Source: Liolophura sinensis (taxonomy: Eukaryota; Mollusca; Polyplacophora; Chitonida; Chitonidae). Taken from it: 64,000 bases of DNA. The notes below the pieces were generated by a model. It searched no databases, had not been told where the DNA came from, and saw only the letters and a program-made list of their open reading frames with translations. This document shows positions 32,506 through 60,700 of this stretch, one piece after another; position 1 is the first letter of the stretch, and each line of letters begins with the position of its first letter. The stretch covers positions 10,795,501-10,859,500 of the forward strand of contig NC_088303.1 of assembly GCF_032854445.1 (NCBI RefSeq), in the 5' to 3' direction. The position numbers and the translations under genes are program-made.

Positions 32506-32511
32506 ATTTAT

Positions 32512-32700
32512 GTATTTATTTGATTGGTGTTTTACACCGTACTCAAGAATATTTCAATTATACAACAGTGGCCAGCATATTGGTGGGAGGAAACCAGACA
32601 GAACCCGGGGAAAAGCCACGACCATTCGTAGGCAGCTGGCAGACCTTCCCATGTACTGCTGGAGAGGGAGACAGCATGAGTTGGACTTGAGCTCCCAGAT
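32512..32700 (-). mobile_element. SINE, 5' truncated, first of a pair
   Basis: Reverse copy from the (TTTA)n-side tail through the body; the tRNA-like head is missing. A second copy in the same orientation follows within 8 bp. Confidence 0.85.
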
Positions 32701-32707
32701 CCGATAC

Positions 32708-32880
32708 ATTTATTTATTTATTTATTTGATTGGTGTTTTACGCCGTACTCAAGAATATTTCACTTATACGATGGCAGCCAGCATTATCGTGGGTGGAAAC
32801 TGGGCACAGCCTGGGGGAAACCCACGACCATCCGCAGGTTGTTGACAGACCTTCCCACTTACAGCTGGAGAGGAAGAGAT
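32708..32880 (-). mobile_element. SINE, 5' truncated, second of a pair
   Basis: Reverse copy with the tail tttatttatttatttatttg and gattggtgttttacgccgta. It ends at cagctggagaggaagag before the head. Lies just beyond the ZNF341 stop codon, in its 3' UTR. Confidence 0.88.
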
Positions 32881-32997: not shown

Positions 32998-35900
32998 TCA
33001 CTGTTCCTCCATAGATCGCAGGATGTCCTCTGAGGCTTTCAGCAGACTTTCTGTGCCCTGCAGCACAGGGTCAGTCTCAGAGACGTAGTGCTGGATTTGT
33101 CTGCCCTGATGAGTCTCCAGGTCCCCATCCTCTGTGATCTCAGCCACACAGGTAACCATTTCCCCGGCCGCAGACCCCGGGGTAGCAAACACCACCTGAC
33201 GCCTCACCTGTACCCCGTCTACCCCAGGTGTGGGGTCCTCTACGATGAAGGTGTGCATGCCCTGAGAGTTGACGCCTGCAGGCATGTGCTCCTCTACTGT
33301 GATGTGCTGCTCCTCTGCAACCAAGTCTACCCCAGACGTATTTGACGAATTAGTGATCTCTATTTCCACCCCCTGCCCCTCTGAGGTGGAAACAACTTGT
33401 GCATTTGACAAATCCACCAGCTCCACTTGACCAATCACAGCAGGCTGCAGCAACTGCTGAGTTGCAGGGGAAATGATGGACTGGTGGGACATATTAGGGG
33501 AGATAACTGAGGGGGCTGACATGGTGACGATGGTGGACTCTGACTGATTAGCTTCATCCACAGAGCTGCCTCCTGTGATGTCACACGACTGCAGCTGCAC
33601 CACATAACCCGCTGAGGTAGTCAAATGAGGAGCTGCAGCAGTGCGAGTGAACTCCATCCCAGCAAAGGACACCTCCACAGTTGTGTCCTTGACCTGACCT
33701 TCATGCACCGCTGCTGTGTCTTGTGACTGTGACGTAACATGTGTATGTGTAGTGTCTGTTGACTGGTCACTGCTTGTCACCGTGACAACTCTCTGAGGCT
33801 GGGGAAACACAGGTTGTAGCTTTATCGTGTCAGTGGGAGAGGCTGTATTGTTGGGAGGAGCCACAGGTAACCCTGAAGATGGGCCAGAACTCAATGTGGC
33901 TAGAGGAGCTGAATCTCTAGATGAGGAAGCCACAGGTGGCTGCTCTGCTGGCGTCGCCTCTGTCTCCATGCCCAGCCTCTCCCCGCCTTCTCGCCGTGTG
34001 GGTCGGCCACGTCGACGAGTTATCATCGTGCTTGTTGACTTTTGACTATCAGCCGTCACAGTGATCATTCTTTTCCGTGGCCTCCCAATTTTCCGGCGAC
34101 TCCGCGCTCGGGGTGTGGGGACAATAAGCGTTCCGTCTTTGTCTGTTATAGGGTTACATTTATGTCCATGGAACAGCTTAGGCCTGAAAAAGCCTTTGCC
34201 ACATTTCTCACAGCGGAACCTGAAGTCTGACCGATGACTTCTCTCATGTTCCAGCAGGGAGGGTTTGCGACAGAAAGATTTGCCACACTCGCGACACTTG
34301 AAAGGTTTTATACCACTGTGGGAGATAATGTGAGCCTTCAACTTGTCGGGACGATTGAACTCCATCTCACAACCTGAACAAACAAAAGGTCTCTATTAAA
34401 CCCTCTCAATTCTATTAAGCTTTCAAAGACATTAATTAACACTTCAACATAGTAAAACATTTAAATGTACAAAAGTATCCCAAAGTTTTAACAAATATAA
34501 AGGTGCATTCATTCAATCTCTCAGCTTGGACCCATCATGAAAGGATTTCCACATCAATAACAAGCATACCTGATACCCTGTGTCTCAGCAGATTAAGAGG
34601 TAAATTAATGTGTTCAAAAAAGCTAATTAAGCTAATGAAATCAAACTAAATATGAATACGTGAATATAAATTTTCACCAAAAAGAAGTAGGTATACGGTC
34701 AATTAAGCTGACCACAATCCAATTTGGTCTAAGGTTCATTTTTCTAGGATAAACAATTCTGACAAGACTTTAACAGTAGAATTTAAACTTTGGTCTAATA
34801 AAAATGTAATTCAGTCTGGAGTACTTTATATATACAAGCAAGCCCATTTATGAAATTTGGTCCACTTGTTTTGGAGAAAATAAAGGGGCATAACTCAGTT
34901 CATTTTTGATTAGCTTTGAGATTAATTGGCCACATGTTCAGTTTTTATCCAACATCAACCCCTCTCTAGGAGATAACTGACTGATGAGACCAATGAAATA
35001 AAATTAATTTAATACAGTACAAAACTGGCCCTTGTACCATACAGAAGGTGTGTCCAGAATGGCTGGCAACACAAACACACCTGTAAGGCTTTTGAATGGA
35101 CATTTGTACTTCTTGACGGTGACATGGATCAGCATGTGCCGCTTAAGTTTGTCTTTCCTGTTGAAGGCAGCGTTGCACTGTTCACACTGGAAGGGTTTCG
35201 CACCAGAGTGGATCAGGGAATGCATCTTGAGATAATTTTCAGCCTTAAATCGCTTGAAGCACACCTGACACTCAAACTGACCTGAAAACATGTAAGTTAT
35301 CAGAATTACATGAAAGATTAGTTTTTCCTTGTTCTTAACATGAATTATTTCAACAGTGATATAGTGAACTTAAAAGCAATTTGTTAGTTTGGATTTTGGT
35401 CCAAGTGTCATGACACTTACAATGTTACTTTTTGACAAGTATGTCATAGCATGTTTTACTGATGGATGACACCAGACCATCTTGAATACACCAGTGAGAA
35501 ACTTTTCAACACATGACACATTTGCCTTCCCAATTCGTGGAAGAGGGGTCTTCAACGAACATAAAACATAAAAAAAAGCTTAGCTTACACTGCTGACAAT
35601 TTTCTGTCATAAAGCCCTTAGTTTTATTTATTTATTTGATTGGTGTTTTACACCATACTCAAGAATATTTCACTTATACGACGGCGGCCAGCATTATGGT
35701 GGGTGGAAACCGGCCACAGCCCGGGGCAAACCCACGACCATCCGCAGGTCGCTTACAGACCGTCCCACTTACGACTGGAGAGGAAGCCAGCATGAGATCA
35801 ACTTGAACTCACAGCGACCACATTGTTGAGAGGCTCCTTGGTCATTACGCTGCACTAACGCGCTAACCGACAGAGCCACGGAGGCCCCACCATAAAGCCC

Positions 35901-38900
35901 CGAGAATAATGAGAGCAGGGCAATCTAGAAATTCCCTCTTCAAGATGTCCCAGGACCGGACTGAACCTCCATGTACATGTGTACCTCATGAACCTTCATG
36001 TACATGTGTACCTCATGAACCTTCATGTACACATGTATACCTCATGTGCCAGCACCTGGGAGCTGCATGGCTAAGCAATGAGTCAGGTTTCATTCCCTGT
36101 CCAGTTAATATGCCTTTCTGGAAACCAACATGTACCATATAACAGCCCTCATTCACTGTTAGATTGTTACATGAACATACTACATGTGACTAGACATGGT
36201 ACTGCATGCCCATGGAATGATAGCCTAGAGGCGAGGGGATGATGAAGCAGGGGAACACCCAACATGAAACACCTTAGTGCTGGCTAACAGAGCAAAATGG
36301 ATACATGTAAGTGAACTGACCGACAGTGTGGCATGTGGCCTGATGTCTCCTGAGGTAGAACTCACAGGTAAACACGTTAATGCTGGCGAACAGGACAAAG
36401 TGTGTGAGTGAAGTGACCAACAGTGCAGTATGTGGACAGGTGTCCCCTGCGGTAGAACTCACAGGTAAACACCTTAACACTGGCTAACAAAACAAAATGT
36501 GTGAGTGAACTGACCGACAGTGCCATGAGTGGACAGGTGTCTCCTGAGGTATCGTTCACAGGTAAACACTTTCATACAGGTGGGGCACGGGTAGTGATGA
36601 GAGGCTGTGGACAGGTGATGGTCCAAAGCTTCAGGACTGGAATACTTGTTCAGACATTTCGTACACTGGTAATATCTGAAAGTAAATGTACATTGGTTAA
36701 GTAGAGACATATACCATTACACAACTGTCCACATGGGTCCCAGCTTTGAAACCCCCTTCATGTATCTCAATGATACCTTGTCCATATTCTGTACTGATCT
36801 TGTTTTAGTAATCCGATATTAGCACAGAAACCACAAATTTTCATCTGCATCACATAAACCTAATATTAATCCTATAACAGTAAAGATATGGCTTCCATCT
36901 TGTCCACAAGATTCTCTACCTGCCATGTTGACTGATTTTATCTCACGCATTATATTGCCATAAAATCTACATGCTTAATTTAAATGGTTCCAGTTGAAAT
37001 AGAAATGTCCTTATTTCATTTATCTGACTGGTGTTTTACGCCTTCCTCAAGAATATATCACTTATACGATGGCGGCCTTCATTATGGTGGGAAAAAAAGA
37101 GCAGAGCCTGGGAAAAACACACTACCATCTGCAGCTTGCTGCAGACCTTCCCATGTACAACTGGAGAGGAAGCAGACATGAGCTGGACTTGAAATCACAG
37201 CAACCACATTGGTGAGAGGCTCCTGGGTCATTACACAGCACCAGCATCCTTACCACCTTGCCCACGGACGCCCCAAAAAAGAAATGTAATTTAGTACATA
37301 ATATGCCCAGGTATGAAACTTGAAAACATTATTTGAAACAGTATATGAAACCTGGTGAAACACTGACCTTGGTGCAGAGAGCCTGGTTTGGCTGGGGTAG
37401 AGACTGTGGGAGTACTGGTGGACCCCTAGCTCATATAGGGACGGGAAGGTTTTATTACACAGGTGACATCTGTAAGACATGCCATCCTCGTGGGTCTTGA
37501 TGTGCTCTAAGAACATGTCCAGACTTTTGAACATGGAACCACATGTCTTCAGCACACATTTGTACACCTGTCAGACACAAAATTGTAATTAACTGTTCTG
37601 TGTGTTAGATCAGGGTCTCAATACCTGTATACCTGTAAGTCAGAAAAAGTTAGTAGCTATTCTGAATGTTAGATCAAAGATGAGAGGTTAGTTCTGGATG
37701 TTCCATCAAGGTCACACTCCCATCTGCAAGGTTTATCATTACCATTATCAAAATAGACAAACACTATTATAAATATATGTGAATAAAACTAAAAGTTCCT
37801 GTGACACAGTCCTCATTGTCCAGTTTCCCCCAAAAGAAAACATCATCTCAACATGTACACTGTGTATACTGTAATACACCTTGAAAACTCCAAATTTTCT
37901 CCTGTCCATGCCCTTGGTACATTACATAGGTTTACCACCATGCCAGTATCTAACGGGTGTGGAAAATACATGTACAAGAGCTGTCTAGTCTATGACACCA
38001 AAACATACATATGCTGTCTGTTTTAAAATAAGGTAAAATATCCTGGACAGTCAAACAATTGATGCAAACACAAATTCATGTTTGCTTCCTCAGCCTTACC
38101 TGTTCATCTTTGTGTAAGACCATATGTGACTTGAGCTGAAAGTAGGTTTTGAACTTCTCCGGGCAGTACTGACACAGGTAAGAGTTATCCACACTGACGT
38201 TCATCTGACCGTTAGCATCTGTTGTTGACCCAATATTCAACTACAAACAAGAAAAAAAAATCACATATATTTACCAGTTAGACTAGGTACCAAAATCTGC
38301 ATGTACATGTAGCAGGGTGACCGACTCCCTTATTGACAAACAGCTGACAATAGGTTTACCACAGGGAAGTAAATGCAGCTGTGCCTGGCATGACGGGCTG
38401 AGGTCTATGATATCACCTACCTCTGGTTATTTACTGATTGATATTACCTAATACTTAAACTGGTAACAAGATACAGAATGGCCTACTTCTGCATAATTAG
38501 TTGCATACACGTAGTTAGTTGATGCTATCTTTTTTTATTCGAGGCCCTAGGTTGCACGCGCACATTATGTGTGACACTGGTTGCAATTTGAGCATCTTCC
38601 CACGAAGCCACATCTCACTTCTCGTTATAGCTGGCTGAAGAAATATGATGGCTTGCACACTATATCATTCTCGGGGATATGACACACCTGCCTGAATAAA
38701 TTATCACTGACCACTTGACTGAAATATGTAACCCACCTCTCTAACTGGCTGTAGAACATGACTTACTTCCCTACCTTCATGCCGAACCTCTCTCTCTCAG
38801 GCTGTAGAACATGACTTCATACCTCCCTGCGATAGAGTATACTGTAGAACATAACTTACCTGTGTGACTGGCTGTTGAACATGACTTACCTCTCTGTTTG

Positions 38901-41900
38901 GGTGTAGAACATGACTTACCTCTGTGACTGACTGCAGAACATGACTTGCCTCTCTGTTTGGCTGTAGAACATGACTTACCTCTGTGACTGACTGTAAAAC
39001 ATGACTTGCCTCTCTGTTTGGCTGTAGAACATGACTTACCTCTGTGACTGACTGTAGAACACGACTTGCCTCTACAACTGGCTGTAGAACATAACTTACC
39101 TCAACAACAACGTTCATCTGACAGTTAGCATCTGTGGTTGATCCAATATTCATCTAGATGTGGGAAAACAAAAACATGTATTTATCAGCTCCCCAGTATG
39201 ACCTACTTCTGCATAATTAGGTTACACTTTGTTAATTCTTTCTTTTGTATTGGATTGCTGTTCAATGCCATACTAAAGAATTGATCACTTATTTGATGGC
39301 AGGCAATTTCATGTGTGGGGAAGCTGGAGTGCATGGGGAAAAACCATCGACCTTCGAAAAGATCATGTGAAGTACAGTATGACATCCTGGCTAAGTCATG
39401 TTCTGGCTGCAGAACATGACTTACCACTTTGACTGGCTGTAGAACATGACTGAAGTCTCTGTCAGGCTGCAAAACATGACTTACCTCTGTGACTGGCTGC
39501 AGAACATGACTTACCTTTGTGACTGTCTGTATAATATGACTTACACCTTTGACTTGCTGCAGAACATGACTTAGCTCTGTGAATGGCTGCAGAACATGAC
39601 TTACCCTTCTAAATGGCTGTAGAACATGACTATTAATACCTCTCTGACTGGCTGTAGAACCTCTCTGACTGGCTGTAAACATGACTTACCTGTCTGACTT
39701 ACTGAAGAAGATGACTTACCTCTATGACTGGCTAAAGAACATGACTTACCTGTCACGACTGTAGAACATTATTTACCAGGATGTAGAACATGACTGTTCT
39801 CTTCGACTGGCTGTAGAACATGACTTATCATTCTGATTGGCTGTAGAACATGACTTACCCTTCTGATTGGCTGTAGAACATGACTTATCTCTCTGTCTGG
39901 CTATCAGAAAACATGACCTACCACTCTGGTTGGTTGCAGGACATGACTTACCTCTATGACTGACTAAAGAACATGACTTACCCCTCTGACTGGCTGAAGA
40001 ACATGACTTACCCTTCTGAATGGCTCCAAAACATGACTTACCTTTGTGACTGTCTGCATAATATGACTTACCCCTCTGACTTGCTGCAGAACACGACTTA
40101 CCTCTGTGACTGGCTGTATAATATGACTTACATCTTTGACTGGCTGTAGAACATGACTGAAGTCTCTGTCAAGCTGCAAAACATGACTTACCTCTGTGAC
40201 TGAATGCAGAACATGGCTTACCTCTGTGACTGTCTGTATAATATGACTTACCTCTTTGACTTGCTGCAGAACACGACTTACCTCTGTGACTGGCTGTATA
40301 ATATGACTTACATCTTTGACTGGCTGTAGAACATGACTGAAGTCTCTGTCAAGCTGCAAAACATGACTTACCTCTGTGACTGAATGCAGAACATGGCTTA
40401 CCTCTGTGACTGTCTGTATAATATGACTTACCTCTTTGACTTGCTGCAGAACATGACTTACCTCTGTGACTGGCTGTAGAACATGACTGAAGTATATGTC
40501 AGGCTGCAGAACATGACTTAGCTCTGTGAATGGCTGCAGAACATGACTTACCCTTCTAACTGGCTGTAGAACATGACTATTAATACCTCTCTGATTGGCT
40601 GTAGAACACGACTTATCTCTCTGTGTGGCTATCAGAAAACATGACCTACCACTCTGGTTGGTTGCAGGACATCACTTACCTCTATGACTGACTAAAGAAC
40701 ATGACTTACCCCTCTGACTGGCTGAAGAACATGACTTACCTGTCACGACTGTAGAACATGATTTACCTCTCGGTTGGCTGTAGAACATGACCTACCACTC
40801 TGATTGGTTGCAGGACATGACTTACCGCTTTGACTGGCTGTGGTACATGACTTACCCCTTTGATTGGCTGAAGAACATGACTTACCCTTCTGATTGACTG
40901 TAAAACATGACTTTTCTCTCTGTCTGGCTATCAGAAAACATGACCTACCCTTCTGACTGGCTGTACAACAACTTACTTCTCTGACTGGCTGAAGGCTATG
41001 GTCAGGCTCCTGTCCATCACCTGCCATAGTGCTGTTACACTGTGTAATCCCTGACTCTATGTCCTCCACTAACTCTACCAGCTTTGTAGGTTTAGGTAGG
41101 GTAGAGGCGGTTCCTGCTGGCCACACCTAGTGGATGAAAAAAGGTTCAGATATTCAAGATATTGGTACAAGATCTTAAATGTATAAAAATACATCAAATT
41201 ATAGTTTTTTTAAGGCCTCAGCGGTCAGTCCAGAAATTAAGTGCCTCGCAGTAGTGATGTCAATGATGATCTCTCTTAAAAAGAATTCGGGGACCTCCGT
41301 GGCTCAGTTGGTTAGCGCTAGCACAGCCTAATGACCCAGAAGCCTCTCACCAATGTGGTCGCTGTGAGTTCAAGTCCAGCTCATGCTGGCTTCCTCTCCA
41401 GCTGTAAGTGGGAAGGTCTGGCTAAGCCGGCCAGGCAAACCCACACAGTGTCTGAGTATGTTATTGTCTAAACTGTACATACATGTATATATGGCTAGTA
41501 GCCGGCTGACAACAAATCAGGTGCAGTGTATATAAGTGAACAGAGACCAACATAAATTTACACAATATGGAAGACGTCATTGAGTATACAAAAGTATAAG
41601 TTCCAAGCAAAAAAAATCTAAGACCATTTAATGGAGGTGTTTGACAGTGACAGTTCAGAGTATTTTGATTTGGTCTTTTGGGGGAAAGTCAGAGTGCTTC
41701 ATTTTCCTTGTTCATTCTGTGGAAATGTCACATCACATGGAAATCTGAAGAAGCTGAAGCTTAGATAGCTTTTTTTTTGGAAAAAGCTAAAACTGACGCA
41801 ACTAACTATATCTGAACATAGAGAAATATCCATGAATGAATGCGTTGTTTGCTTTAAGAAAATCCTACTGAGAAACAAAATAGGTCCGACTGATCAGTTA

Positions 41901-44056: not shown

Positions 44057-47000
44057 TGTTTGTTTTATTAGAGTTTTTATTTAATTTTTTTTCTTCTTTT
44101 TTTTCCAACTTATTTTTTTATTATCTTTTCTTCATGAGTGAGGGAGTCCAGAGTGCAAAAAAGACTGCCTTATGCCAGGTACCAAACAAAGCTCTTGACT
44201 TCAACCCACGTTCAAAGCAGCAAAAGCAGCAGGAGCATGGCCTAATAATATTTTAAAGGTTGATAATATTTTTATCACAACCTTGTTAACATATTACAAC
44301 ACTTTTTATTTGCCAGTAAAGTTAACATCATTATGACTTGGTAATAACTGTGTCATGTTGTTCTGTTTTGTGTGCGATGCATTAAATGACAGGTTATATG
44401 TGATCAGAAGTATTCTTGCAATTGTATAATTTGTTCAAAACATAAAATCACTTTTTTTGGAAACATCAGCGTGACAATGCTTGCAAAATAAGGGGAGATA
44501 ACCCATTGGCATTTTAGGTAAAACATTGATACAGCAGATTTACATAAAACAAATATTATTTTAGTACACTCACAAGAAAAGCTACTACATTACATTTATG
44601 TATGTCACAGGGACAGAAGAATGTAGATCACAACAATCACTTTGCTTGTGATGAAGGCTTTGCAACAACCTGCCATGGTTGTTGCATGGTGGTGGTAAAG
44701 GCTGTGGGGTTTGGCACTAACCTGTCATGGTTACTGTATGGTGGTGGTAAAGGCTGTGGGGTTTGGCACTAACCTGTCATGATTATTGTATTGTGGTGGT
44801 AAAGGCTGTGGGGTTTGACACTAACCTGTCATGGTTATTGTATGGTGGTGGTAAAGGCTGTGGGGTTGACACTAACCTGCTGTGGTTATTGTATGGTGGT
44901 GTTAAAGGCTGTGGGGTTGACACTAACCTGGTTATTGTATGGTGGTGGTGGGGTTGACATTAAAACCTGTTGTGGTTGTTATATGGTGGTAAAGGCCATG
45001 GGGTCCGGCACTAACCTGTCTTTGTTGTTGTATGGTGGTGGTAAAGGCTGTGGGGTTGGTACTGACAACAGTCTGCTGAGGCACAGGTCTCAGGGTGGCT
45101 GGTGGAGTACAGCGCCCTTGTTTGTGAGAAATGAAGGACGGCAGAGAGGTAAACTGCTTCTTGCACTTCCCACACTGGAACAGGTCTTCTTCTTCTGCTA
45201 CAAGATGAGGTCAGGAAAACAGTTACTACCTTACCACATATGACACCATATTGCTCTAACACTCTTCCAAGGGAGAGAATCTTTTCCATCTTTTCAAATA
45301 TAATAGACAAACTTTCAGTGCAATTTATGTACATTTGTAATCGGTGGTGATGGATTGGCCAGTTTCAGGGCTTCAAAAAAATAAAATTTTATCAATCAAC
45401 ACAGATTAATGCCTTCAGAATATGCTTGAACAATTACCGTAGATAACTTAAAAATCCCAATTTCTTTATTTATTTATTTATTTACTTGATTGGTGTTTTA
45501 CGCTGTACTCAAGAATATTTCACTTATATGACGGCGACAAGCATTATGGTGGGAGGAAACCGGGCAGAGCCCAGGGGAAACCCACGACCATCTGCAAGGT
45601 TGCTGGACTTGAACTCACAGCGACCGCATTGGTGAGAGACTCCTGGGTCATTACGCTGCGCTAGCGCGCTAACTGACTGAGCCACGGAGGCTCCAAAATC
45701 CAAATTTCCCTTAAAATCAGCTGAAATACACTGTTGAGCTGACCCTGCACTCCAGACAGTATATGTGATGAAATATCTGAGCGACAAACCAAAACCTGAC
45801 TGGAGAGCAGAACTACCCGGTGGTAAGGAATACAACATGTAAAAATCTGAAAGATTTTTCAATAAATGAACTCAATAACTCTAAATTGCTGAATTTATAA
45901 AAACTCAATCCTATCTAAACCCACATTCACTAATTCTGATTTGTTGCATTCACTTAACAATTGCAACAAACTGCACTATGTCAAAAATTTGGCAGACTTT
46001 TATCAAGTTAACAAATTTGTAACATTTTACTTACAGTTACATGTAGGAAAATATTTACCCTCGATGACCTGAAATTTGACCATGACTAAGTTGTTCATTT
46101 TTCCGGATTCTGGGAGTTCTACTGATTTTAGAAAGGTGCTCTGAGAGGAGTTTGTCAGGTAGGATGATATCATACTAGGAAAATGAAAATTTTAGCAGTG
46201 GTCAGAAGTAATATCTCATGACATATTTTCCTCCAAAAATGCTTTTATGTGGGCAAATTTTTTGAAGTATTTCACATTTTCTATGGCTTATGGGCTAAAA
46301 ATTTACAAATGGTTCAAAAAACCTGTACAACTTACCTTGTTGGGTCGCCTCGGCCACATTTTGTGAGTCAAGAAGGGACTGAACCACAAGAGCTGCCTGG
46401 TTATCCACTGACACTCCCCCTGTAAGATTTCCACTATAAACAATTAGCCCTGCCTGACAACCAGTGTAGGGTTTATGGATACTCGGACAGAGCAATACCA
46501 GCTTTTCTGTTACCCCACATGGATCAATCTTTACCTGGCCTCCATTCTGGCTCAAGTCTTCATCCTTTAATGTACATGTAGTATTAGGACATTAAACAAG
46601 GCCAGCAAAATGGCACTCAAATGAGAAATTAACCCGACTGTTGTTGTTCATGTGTAAGTAAGAAAATGTTGAGAATGACATAAATAAATATTACAGCAAT
46701 CCGAGTTAAGGGTGGAGGACAACCTCCACTATGCCATTTTGAAAACCCTCCAGACTAAATACTGAAGACTAAACAAAAAAAAAAAAACAACAAAAAAACA
46801 TGGAAACCTACATGTATGTGTAGCCTAATTAAGTAGGCCTACCTATACACAAATGAATAAAAAAAAACAGACACAGTAAGTATGTCACTGGTTCCATGAA
46901 GATTTGGTTCACATCAAGTGCATGCAGGAATATTTACTACCCTAAAGATCCAAACAATGCTTTTTATCTGTCAGTGACATATACCCGCCGTGTGGCTTCA

Positions 47001-54700: not shown

Positions 54701-57700
54701 CACTTGTTAGAGTTACTTCCTGATTTATATATAGGTGGACTATCGGAATTTCTTTCAGTAATAAATGTGTTCTTTTGCACAGTTTATAGATATCGCTTTT
54801 AATTTCACATAGACCTATTTCGTATTTCACAGACGCCATGACGTTAAAAAAGAAACAAGACGTTCCAATTGGAGCTTAACGGTATGACATCATAATGTAT
54901 CTACTGTGAACTTTTACATTTCTACGTCACGCAACAATAAGAAACGACATCATACATACACAATTTGACATATCTAGGTTAACTGCTGTGACCTAAACTG
55001 GCCGTTGATTGGTCTAAAATGCGTGACCTATGAGGATTGAGTAAAACAGAATGGCAGCATGAAGAATGCAGTTTTTGCTACATTTTCTTCATTTTTTGGG
55101 GAAGAATTAGACTTTGTCAAATCCCTTGAATGCTGCGCATTCTTGGGATTTGACTCGGCACGAAACAAGACTCAGTGGTATCGGGTTGCACAACAAGCAC
55201 CACTACGGCGGTATTGAACCCTTAAACCACCTCCAAATTCTCCGAATGTATTGGCCTCAAATGTCAGGGTATGTTTTTCAATCAGACAGGTGTATAAAAC
55301 TGAGGAGCAAACTCATATTTACATTTGTCTCATCGACAGGTTACTGGTAGACATAACGGCAAGGTCGTGCCCGAGGGCACTAGCCAGACCCAGCAGAGGT
55401 TAGAGAGGGGCAATTGGGGAAATAAACTGGAGTTTATTCTGACGTGCGTGGGTTATTCTGTGGGACTTGGCAATGTTTGGAGATTTCCATATCTTGCATT
55501 CAAGAATGGTGGCGGTAAGTAATGTAGGTATATGTGGTATATTTGAGCATATCCAAGCTATACTGGACCCTGTATTCTGCGTAGCAACATTTGCAAGTCT
55601 CTGGGGCTTTTTCAGCTACTCTGACAAGAATAATGCTGGGTATGCTCTGAGCTAATATATCTGTGGATATTTGCGCGAGAAGTTTAAAGTAGAAATAATG
55701 ACAAGACAAAAATCTCATGTCCATCTAAAGTTTGCAAGGATTTCACGAATCGTTCGTGTACACCTGGTTTCAGGGACCTTCCTCATTCCCTACTGGATTA
55801 AGCTGCTGTTTTTGGGCATGCCTCTATTCTTCTTGTTTCAGGGGCCTTCCTCATTCCTTACTGGATCATGCAGCTGTTTGTGGGCATGCCTTTATTCTTT
55901 TTAGAATTGTCGTTTGGACAGTTTGCAAGTCTTGGGCCTCTTACAATCTGGAGGATAAGCCCGGTCTGCAAAGGTAGGCCGGTTCCTCTCTTTAACATGT
56001 TGCCATTGTCCAGTTTATCAATTAAATGAAATTAATGAAGTGATGGACCAAAAAGTTACACTGGGGCAAAATTTAAAATGGCTAGCCGGGATATCAAGGC
56101 TATGTTTTGGAAAAGTGATTTCAGACTGTAAAATCACACCAAGAGAGCTAATCGCCTTAAAACAATATATATGAACTTATGTTTATGTCGATATACTTGT
56201 AACTGGATGGACATTCACTTTTGAATAATGGTCTGTAAGCTTACCGGGCGAAGAACAGCTGTTTCCTCCATGTAAGCTGGTTTCCTCCATGCACCCGTGT
56301 TGAGAGTTACACAACAAACACCACTACGGCGGTGTTAAACCCTAAATAGAATAATGGTCTATAAGCTTACTTGGTGAAGAACAGCTGTTTACTACCAGCA
56401 CGCTGGTTTCCTCCCTGTACGCTGGTTTCCTACATGTACACTGGTTCCTTCCATGCAGCCTTGTTGGGAGTGACAATTCTTGAGTCCGGTTTTAAACAAC
56501 AATGAAATAAAATAATTTTTTCCGCCTTGATTATAAACAGTCGCTTTCATACTTCATCTGATGTGTCAGCTAAAGTCTTTGTTTACTTCTAACAATTGCA
56601 TGCATTGTTGTCGTTTTGTTATTGCAGGAATCGGATTCAGTATGGTGATAACGCTGGCGCTGGTGGCCACTTATTACAACGTCATCATCGGGTACTGCTT
56701 CTTCTACTTCTTCGCGTCGATGACAGACCGGTTGCCGTGGGCCCACTGTGACAACGTCTGGAACAGTCCAAACTGTGTGGTGGGAAACGAAACTCTGGCT
56801 TCGGGTATGTTCCCACGACTACACTTACTGCACTTTAGCATTTCTAATATGGAATAGACAACGGCTGGTTGCAGCTTTAGGTCAGAAAGGTCGTCTCATT
56901 TTCCGCGAAATTATATTTATTTTATTTATTTGATTGTTGCATAACGTCAATATGTGCGGGTCGTGACCGAATGGTTCAAGTGCCTTACTTTGAATTGCTT
57001 GAGAACACAAAATATAACCTATGACAGGGAACTAAAGTTAAACTTTGGAGTAAAATTTGCACCGAGGCTAACACAATTTCACTACATCGTTCTTTTAATA
57101 TTATAATTTTCTTATGCAAAACGCCATTAAATATTCTTTTGAATGCATTGGGTGTTTTTGGGACAATTCTCTATAAAATGTTAAAACCTGTATCCGAGTC
57201 ATATATTGCGTGAGTCTGACATAGTCTGGCTTCGATCTACACGCAGTGGACTGAGGTGGTGATTAACTATTTTGTGAAATGGACAATCTTATTAATAGCA
57301 TGTACAGTTGTTTCTGTCTTCTTGCAATGACATCCTAGTCATTGTGTCGACAGACGAAATCATCAAATCACTATTTCACGCATAACTGAGTCAATATCCT
57401 GTTCGACAATAGATAATCCTTTCTACGCAATTAATGTACACTGCCCGTGCATATAAACTGTGTTTAAGTCGGGCAAATTCCAAATTAACATGCACTGAAC
57501 ATGTGCTACCATATTTTGACTTTACTCAAAACACGTTTATGAGTTTAAGTCTGTGAAGTACTACTGAAGAACAACGCTGTAAACAAACCCGAGACTCTTC
57601 ACGCCACTGTATTTGATTTGTCCTGATTTATGATAATAGTAGAAATTATGGTGTCATAAGTTACTTTTAGTTTGCATACAGTACAAATGTAGGCCCATAC

Positions 57701-60700
57701 CCCTTTAATACGAAGATGTACCCAGCTCTGCCTTTAATGCTGAGTCAAGGTGAGTTTATTGGGAATGGGCACACCAGGGTTGACGACCTCTCTGACTTAC
57801 CTTAGTATCGCTAGAACCGCTCTCGGTTGAGTAGGTGCAGTGCTATTTATATGCTATATACACAATTAAGTAATGATTTACAGTGGTTTGCTCTCTAGTG
57901 GTGTAAATAATGGACATTCATATTCAGTTCCCATGTACAAATACCGGTAAATACTGAAGTTCATTAAAGCTTTCCACTCGTTTAGAAGACAAAGAGGGAA
58001 TGAAACGTTCATCAAGAAGGTATCCTTGTTTTTCCACGAGATTCCGTGATGAGAGCTCCATTTAAATTTATCGATAAGCAACTATTATTTCACATTATTA
58101 ACATTTTTCTCTTACCAGTTCCAAAATACAGAATGAAAAAGAATGCTTCTTTTGATTTCTGTTGGCATTTAGCAGTATGTTGGCCCAACTTGTAATAATA
58201 CTGCATTTGGAGCGATTTACAGACATAACTTATTGATATATTTGATTGATGCTTTACCCCGTACTCAAGAATATTTAACTTATTCGATGGTGGCTTGCAT
58301 TATAATAGGAGAAAATGAGGAAACCCACGACTTTTGGTAGGTTGTCACCAGACTTACGACCATGCAATGAGGAAGCCCGCAAGACCTGGACTTGAACTCC
58401 CAACGACCACATAGGGACCTGATATAGGCATATCTCAAATGAATTTAGTTAATTTAGTGATTATGATCTGGAGTTCCCATAGGTCGACTCTGACTGCTGT
58501 CTGTTTCTTTCCATTGTACCAATAAACATGTGTACATGTCGATCGAGTTACACCGTGGCTATGTGTATACATCAGTCGTCCTTGTATTTACTGTTCGTAC
58601 ACTATCCTCCATGAATCCGTTAATTGTTTATTCCTTTAATTTCCTATTCCGGGTTTTCAAAAGGTGAACAGGCCATATCCTCAAGCGAAGATTTCTTCAC
58701 GTGAGTAGATCCTGTTCATAGGTGTGAAATACGTGTAACAGATCACGACGCTTTCGTATCGTTATAAAGGGAACTGAGGAAGAAGTACTTCCCGTTTCAT
58801 CGTCTGCTGATGACAACTATATATCAATTACTTGGACACACCCTCCATAATAAAGTTAATGATAACACCTTTCTTATATCACCCTAAACTTGTTCGAGAA
58901 ATTCTACAGCCCGACTTAAGTGCAATATTTTGAGGAAGCCCCAGTGTATTCTTCATGTTAATTATTATTCCCCTTTCCCAGAATCTATACCGTTATTTAT
59001 TTAATTATTTATTTATTTATTTATTTTATACTCAAGAATATGTTACTTATTAGTCCTCCAATTTGTCTGATATTGTTGACAGTGCCTAATGAGACAAATC
59101 ATCTCAAAAAGCCAAGCTACGGAACTTTTCATTAAAAAGTTTTCATTCATTGCATTAAGGAAACGAGCTAAAAGAAAACTGTTCTATGTCACGTACGTGG
59201 TTTGGCGGCCATATTGGATGCACCTGTATATCGTTTTCTAGAGCTAAGAATGTTTATCTGAAATTAATATACTGCCAGAACAAGTACAGCTGGGTGCAGT
59301 GTGTACAAACAGAGTTTATATCTTGAAAATTGTGGAAATTTACTGGTTACTAAATTTGTCACGTGAGCAAAAATATTTGAATATAATAAGCACGTTATCT
59401 CGCATATTTTGCCATCTTGATCACGGGTCTGGTCGTTTTTCCTGCGAAGTATACATACATTGAAACTTGCGATCCGAGATCTGAGCAGGTGTATTTTTTC
59501 TGATATTCTCCAGTCACAGCCCTGAAAACAGGGCTGTATATTTATTGTGTAAGTGTTTGAAACATAAAACCACGGCTCCTTTAAATCTGCAATCAATGAA
59601 ACTGTATTCTGCTATGTTTACTTAGCTTTAAAAATCGCTTAATTGGTTCAGTAACCATAAAGCAGACAGAGCTTTAAACTTGAGCTACATGATGGAATGC
59701 ATGTCTAAAATTTTTTTTTTCATGTTTTTTTTTTTCTTTTAACTGAAGTGGTGTATAGGTAGCCTAATTTCCCAAATCACCTTGTTGGGGCGCGGGGGTG
59801 GGGGTGGGGGGGGGGAGGAGAGCTGATATCCCTCCGAAACGCACAAATTTCCCACTTTTGAAAATTAGTAAGTTATTATATTTCTGTTCGTTGTGGAGGT
59901 GCATAGGATAAGATTGTAATTTCTCCTTGTTAAAAGCAATGTAACTTTTAAGGCAACATTGGATGACAGCACTTTGCAAATGGCAGTTGTAGATGAGCAG
60001 GTTACTTTGAGCCGTTCTAAGCCACATGTTATAATCTGCCATTACCTGTACCATACAGTCGGTATGTACTGGACCAGTCTCCGACCATTGACGAGATTGG
60101 CACACCTCGATGGCAGCTTGTTCTCTGTCTGATGCTGGCCTGGACTGTCGTCTTTGTCGTCCTTGTTAGGGGAATCAAATCACTAGGGAAGGTGAGTACA
60201 TTTGGGCTGTCAGATGTGGTATGCGCATGTTAACATTGAACATCCCTTGGTAAGGTGAGTACCTTGGAGCTAACACGAGTGGTATGTTCATGTTAACATT
60301 GAACATCCTCTGGTAAGGTGAGTACCCTTGAGCTGTCAGGAGTGGTATATTCATGTTAAAATTGAACATCCTTTAGGAAGGTGAGTACCTTTGGGTTGCC
60401 AGGTGTGGTACACTGATGTGAAAATTGGACACTTCTCTAATAATAGCCAGTATGACGTTTGATGCTCAAATCATTTTATGCAACAAGACAAGACGAAAGT
60501 ACTTTTCATATGTGTATTTTGCGCCAAGTGCTTTGAACATAAGAGGATATCCTAATGACTGGTCCGCACTCCCAATACGGTGTATTGTGGGCATATAGCG
60601 TTCCCATGAAGCAGCACTATCGAAATTATGTAAGCCGGTTGTGGCCACGCGCGTTTTCTTACTCCCCACCTAAAAATATGGTTTACAACATTCTGCATTC

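Follow-up and report, generated by a model that had tools for sequence, protein, structure and literature searches.

The long tandem array at 38739-40976 on the minus strand of the window, by which we mean the whole 64,000-nucleotide stretch of Liolophura sinensis DNA analysed here (contig NC_088303.1, positions 10,795,501 to 10,859,500), is in our view most probably, with a probability of about 0.82, a minisatellite spanning an exon-intron junction, of the kind called mirages in amphioxus, which is nearly neutral and is removed together with its intron by way of the exon-proximal donor. The array lies in a C2H2-type zinc-finger gene, which according to the list of open reading frames (ORFs) runs on the minus strand from about 46600 to 33000 and in which C2H2-type exons are visible; the name ZNF341 was given to it in a first-pass annotation of this DNA and is treated here as an unconfirmed label. 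The evidence that carries our reading is the anatomy of the array, the identity between its unit and the exon end, the lack of clear signs of selection and the recurrence of such arrays at other exon ends.

The exon beside the array, exon 7 in the numbering of that annotation, covers 150 nt at 40977-41126 (minus strand, VWPAGTAS...DHSLQPVRE), ends in phase 0 and is recognised by its open frame, an AG before it and a GTAAGT after it, the latter belonging to the presumed authentic, exon-proximal donor GAA/GTAAGT at 40971-40976 on the same strand (a slash marks the exon boundary here and below). A search that tolerated as many as 6 substitutions over 18 nt places 63 unit anchors on the minus strand of 38600-41200. 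Exactly 30 nt are found in 49 of the 63 units, with 40 distinct sequences among those 49, and Tandem Repeats Finder (TRF) gives a period of 30 at 39403-40991 (53.2 copies, 74% matches) and at 38842-39102 (8.7 copies), so that the roughly 60 copies of a 30-bp unit originally proposed are borne out. The unit consensus is GTAAGTCATGTTCTACAGCCAGTCAGAGAG and its 3' 18 nt are those of the exon end, CTTCAGCCAGTCAGAGAA; this match identifies the unit as a copy of the junction between exon and intron. Indeed the units cross the boundary, as they combine 18 nt from the exon end with the donor, and the array abuts the donor itself, in full agreement with its initial description as a tandemly amplified junction of exon end and donor. 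The hexamer GTAAGT occurs 39 times on the minus strand of 38739-40976, whereas the remainder of that strand has it 17 times and the whole plus strand 35 times, and the GT is kept in 46 of the 63 units, meaning that many but not all units carry this splice signal. The estimate that about three dozen good donors are retained thus holds, whereas the acceptor-like CTACAG or CTGCAG, thought to occur in most units, is found 31 times against 63 anchors and hence in about half.

The array is not a single block but is broken at 39100-39402 by a partial copy of the next exon together with other sequence. All of the following lie on the minus strand. The main array at 39403-40976, delimited by TRF and the unit list, comprises about 52 units that are mostly 30 nt long, and the second array at 38739-39099, found by TRF and the units, holds 11 unit anchors. 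The next exon itself, exon 8 of the first-pass annotation, is a zinc-finger exon (...KDEQ) placed at 38100-38240 from its ORF and splice sites, and the copy, which we call exon 8', is by alignment to exon 8 a stretch of 54 nt at 39100-39153 corresponding to the 5' part of that exon; it has an acceptor of its own, and its donor derives from a unit. Where the main array ends distally lies an inverted part-unit (39388-39426) that could fold into a hairpin with at most 17 pairs and a single bulge (fold z-score -3.0). A higher-order duplication of 180 nt near 40071-40461, judged by eye from the unit list, looks recent and suggests recent turnover of the array. Higher-order pairs of 60 nt are also seen at 38842-39102, with GT and GC donors alternating in part.

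As for the direction and mechanism of the duplication, we infer that a tandem duplication took in a segment made up of the last 18 or so nt of the exon, the donor and some 12 nt at the start of the intron, and that slippage or unequal exchange would then have raised the number of units to about 60, accompanied by higher-order copying and by the interrupting fragment of exon 8. The exon-proximal donor would still be used for most transcripts and the whole array would leave with the intron; it would persist because it is nearly neutral.

It had also been proposed that the array can add a decapeptide to exon 7 in phase 0, a notion that does not agree with the frame. The first unit is 28 nt long and the six unit starts that follow (+28, +61, +91, +121, +151 and +181, all 1 mod 3) are therefore out of frame, and a stop furthermore interrupts the frame of exon 7 after 77 codons of array sequence, at 231 nt from the donor. 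The sole unit donor that is both in frame and stop-free from exon 7 is found at 40766 (+210, GAG/GTAAAT). In IFI6 the corresponding units are 12 nt long and in frame, so that unit length preserves the frame of the exon; the window array is unlike IFI6 in this respect, its frame being lost through the short first unit and the stop. Competition among the array donors is real, as 22 of the 46 GT-bearing units surpass the authentic donor in the number of positions matching U1, and with many array donors seemingly stronger than it, minor leakage to downstream donors (e.g. +91 or +237) is likely and would mostly result in a frameshift or a stop. As regards the suggestion that units may be spliced as 12-nt micro-exons, the 33 AG sites of the array are preceded by 7-11 pyrimidines of 16, whereas the acceptors of exons 8, 8' and 7 have 15, 13 and 12, respectively. 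We have set the micro-exons aside on account of these pyrimidine-poorer acceptors, which speak weakly against them, as authentic sites also vary: among other authentic acceptors two have 11 and 5 pyrimidines and three were misplaced by one base.

Column and codon tests indicate no clear preservation of either the donors or the peptide. Conservation by column in the 49 units of exact length (40 distinct) gave no clear selection on the GT donor columns, the consensus frequency over the 49 units being 0.78 for the G, tied for 7th lowest of 30 columns, and 0.88 for the T, and the GTAAGT window ranks 9th among 30 cyclic windows when the 40 distinct units are used; the unit finder was anchored on columns 1-18 and is thus biased toward conservation of the GT. 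Likewise, no selection for the decapeptide was found when synonymous, missense and nonsense changes were counted against random placement. The decapeptide frame has 45, 126 and 3 of these, where 43.6, 123.8 and 6.7 are expected if the same base changes are placed at random, and the remaining two frames also show fewer stops than expected.

The notion that the exon-proximal donor is the one in use draws on another array in the same genome, found at a SMAD2/3 locus (L042, within G000:C2:22305900-22308200, and L092), where about 18 units of a 31-nt donor array lie between the last two exons. The exon ...SFVKGWGAEY ends AG/GTAAGT, and the array holds 15 further GTRAGT-like donors, of which 11 have an equal or higher score; the next exon opens with ACGTCAGACGGTAACC, which yields YRRQTVTS, and ends SSMS, the continuation ACGTCAGACG reading RRQTVTS. 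In this frame a stop lies 1 nt past the first donor, so that only the first of about 16 donors gives the full protein, and in so conserved a gene this implies that the exon-proximal donor prevails over many others of like strength. In minigenes carrying two identical CAG/guaagu donors the upstream one is used under exon definition (PMC9225289), and both introns flanking exon 7 are longer than 1.4 kb, for which reason exon definition is expected at the window array. By analogy with the SMAD2/3 array and with published results from minigenes and reverse transcription-polymerase chain reaction, we infer that the exon-proximal donor is used in the zinc-finger gene as well. A report on SRSF1 and intron-proximal donors (PMC5585400) is not used as support.

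Arrays of this kind recur at other exon ends. A genome search for three CAGGTAAGT at short spacing gave 128 matches, whereas the reversed word gave 75. Judged by this one control word the excess is weak, and since the CAGGTAAGT motif itself selects true donors, enrichment at exons is not claimed. The first 100 of the 128 matches make up 20 loci, all of which were examined, and by our own reading an exon ends exactly at the first donor of the array in 8 of the 20. Exon matches above cut-off among these 8 are to GH31 (2.9e-13), MH2 (2.1e-7) and RIC1 (5.5e-10), and further matches are to GTPBP6 (6.9e-10) and, for the MH2/SMAD locus, to SMAD3 (4e-21); one locus matches Roc at 7.7e-5, which is under its cut-off, another matches polycystin-2 weakly (0.045), and no protein match was found for the exons of loci L036 and L041. 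Counting Roc, five of the 8 loci have solid or moderate protein matches. The names DERA, polycystin-like and MFHAS1/LRRK-like are presumptive labels, either ours or those of the first-pass annotation. At one locus (L035, G000:C1:26352000-26354800) a GH31 glucosidase exon is followed by a 39-nt donor array in which 17 of 17 downstream donors keep the frame, the first 275 nt being free of stops. Judged from its sequence, this array is a good candidate for in-frame isoform ladders in the genome under study. Among SLC6 exon ends, 1 of 69 has an array that includes the donor (L084/L013, ...WKNICPIFSG/GTAAGT, 45-nt units running into the intron at G000:C10 around 34945183-34945625), this sample being 69 donor-side match ends (30 + 39) out of 109 matches, in score order rather than at random, with one window match skipped and some ends not true exon ends. 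Arrays also start nearby in four further cases, 9 nt (L053) and 4 nt (L079) past the first base of the donor and 24 nt (L024) and 47 nt (L026) past the match end.

The window itself contains further junction arrays, all found by TRF. A second one in the zinc-finger gene has 52-nt units that start within the end of the exon with donor 45015 (44667-45057, minus strand), and a third has 97-nt units made of a zinc-finger exon end and a presumed donor G/GTCAGT near 36516 (36306-36569, minus strand), both being read from the sequence. In the neighbouring SLC6-type gene, 63-nt units run from ...GIKSLGK/GTGAGT (60186-60431, plus strand), the exon matching Pfam SNF with an E of 7.8e-9, and 68-nt units containing TTTCAG/GG.. 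and the start of an SLC6 exon occur at 55767-55899 (plus strand, likewise read from the sequence), which means that acceptor junctions are affected too. Altogether 4 of 15 mapped donors fall inside TRF arrays (45015, 40976 and approximately 36516 in the zinc-finger gene and 60192 in the SLC6-type gene), as does 1 of 13 acceptors; the junctions were placed by eye, 1 of 16 listed donors (z8, with no clear site) was excluded, and unplaced exons, at least one of them in the SLC6 gene, are missing from the count. Stretches resembling interspersed elements are seen at 41290-41400, 35600-35800 and 32506-32877, some of them tRNA-like (GGGGACCTCCGTGGCTCAGTTGG..), and tRNA-like interspersed elements of such type occur in mollusc genomes. 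Elsewhere in the genome, eight hemocyanin beta-sandwich domains, a molluscan Pfam family, follow each other in a row at G000:C8:37880506-37891931, so that the genome looks molluscan and an origin from amphioxus was rejected.

Several points weigh against a nearly neutral array spliced from its exon-proximal donor. The authentic GAA/GTAAGT scores 4.6 and is surpassed by 35 of the 46 GT-bearing units, the matrix used for this array and for that of SMAD2/3 being a human one. The GTAAGT columns have a mean conservation of 0.908, slightly above the 0.856 of columns 7-27. In the minigenes mentioned above, short introns lead to a preference for the downstream donor (PMC9225289). In human ABCA7 a downstream unit is in fact used, with a minor product retaining one unit and a skipping of exon 19 that rises with array length (PMC5954066), and variants of IFI6 (6-16, G1P3) employ two downstream repeat units as donors (PMC4526556). 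Genome-wide, GTAAGT arrays give 5,528 matches as compared with 13,238 for the reversed word, by which a genome-wide excess of such arrays is ruled out. Arrays cover 12.4% of 33-64 kb and random shifts place a mean of 1.9 donors in them (P = 0.096), so that an excess of junction arrays in the window is unproven. Analogy alone suggests that the array arose from the exon end and not the reverse. The abundance and strength of the unit donors, together with the unit use in ABCA7 and IFI6, would fit a multi-donor switch in which many array donors are used and an isoform ladder arises before the next zinc-finger exon. Such a switch would nevertheless have to operate with six out-of-frame unit starts, a stop 231 nt on, GT columns that selection does not clearly keep and a peptide frame that bears no mark of it, and we consider it distinctly improbable.

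We attach very little weight to the idea that the assembly is at fault, whether through an artefact or through collapse or expansion of the repeat, since, even though a single assembly was examined, the units are diverged from one another (40 distinct of 49) and independent arrays of like kind exist at other loci. It is equally hard to credit that a dispersed satellite happened to be inserted beside the exon. A second 30-nt array, of at least 134 copies of the unit GTAAGTCATGTAATGAGCACATTCCACAGG and with no obvious exon beside it, is present at G000:C10:3262473-3266500 and beyond (L002). Its unit has GTAAGTCATGT in common with that of the window and is 68-75% identical to it over stretches, as a dispersed satellite might be, but with a 25-nt unit core and up to 3 mismatches, 44 of 44 matches in the 609-Mb genome fall at the window locus, and the window unit holds the last 18 nt of its own exon.

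The decapeptide idea would, on sequence grounds, fit exon 8', which the first-pass annotation left unnamed, better than exon 7. The first nine donors of the second array (GT or GC, +0 to +240) follow at 30-nt steps and are open in frame with exon 8' (ORF 38797-39153). Exon 8' and its in-frame units may accordingly be pictured as a cassette exon whose length varies as 54 + 30k nt, with k from 0 to 8, and that would always stay in frame. The good acceptor, with 13 of 16 pyrimidines against 15 in exon 8, the donor GAG/GTAAGT, the length of 54 nt with phase 0 on both sides and the nine frame-keeping donors all favor this possibility. Exon 8' is identical to exon 8 at 40 of 44 exonic positions, and a manual count on the alignment gives 4 differences in these 44 and 15 in the 79 aligned positions of the intron, a divergence that is about what would be expected if exon 8 is constrained and the copy is drifting. 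No selection on exon 8' was found in the alignment with exon 8 and its intron flank. This pattern is that of a neutral copy, the openness of the frame follows from the unit consensus, and there is no selection among units, and we therefore regard the cassette as unlikely. A wider conjecture, which we hold to be quite unlikely, is that of a two-part array in which the main array is ignored or leaky while exon 8' is a live cassette inserting 18 + 10k residues before a zinc finger, with a length that depends on the donor taken and, through expansion of the array, differs from one individual to another, and in which junction arrays more broadly would continually supply the mollusc with new splice forms.

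The recurrence of such arrays in one genome offers a ready natural experiment on donor choice, in which an authentic donor is directly trailed by 5 to about 60 copies, many of them predicted to be equal or stronger. Donor usage in RNA at such arrays would put intron-centric and exon-centric proximity rules to a harsher test than two-site minigenes do, and the arrays may in addition feed the gain of introns and exons.

The annotation had known of no described system of this kind, and this does not hold, since amphioxus mirages, human ABCA7 and IFI6 have all been described (PMC3087553, PMC3902484, PMC5954066, PMC4526556). The mirages of amphioxus, found in Adh3, globin, troponin C and PGBD5, are minisatellites spanning exon-intron boundaries and are reported not to disturb regular splicing (PMC3087553, PMC3902484). 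They resemble the arrays of the window in having boundary-spanning tandem units, AG or GT signals in many of these and an involvement of both donor and acceptor sides, and differ in scale, as the globin gene has 3 and 6 units in two haplotypes and the Adh3 units measure 10-72 bp, whereas the mollusc array has about 60 units. The variable number tandem repeat in intron 18 of human ABCA7 has 25-bp units, 23.7 of them in the reference, with the first GT serving as the canonical exon-18 donor (PMC5954066), and the window array is similar in that its units directly follow the exon and the first GT is the presumed donor; population length variation, minor unit use, exon 19 skipping and disease association are known for ABCA7. 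In IFI6 the repeat units after the exon act as alternative donors in a layout like that of the window array (PMC4526556). The gain of introns through tandem duplications (PMC4974935) likewise involves a duplicated segment that crosses an exon-intron boundary, but there the duplication yields a new intron, whereas the copies in the window pile up inside an old one. Among the matches listed in open-licence papers, such arrays are not reported from a mollusc in titles or the openings of abstracts. The window array thus belongs to a kind already described through the mirages, ABCA7 and IFI6, and its value lies in its scale and in the recurrence of the kind within one genome.

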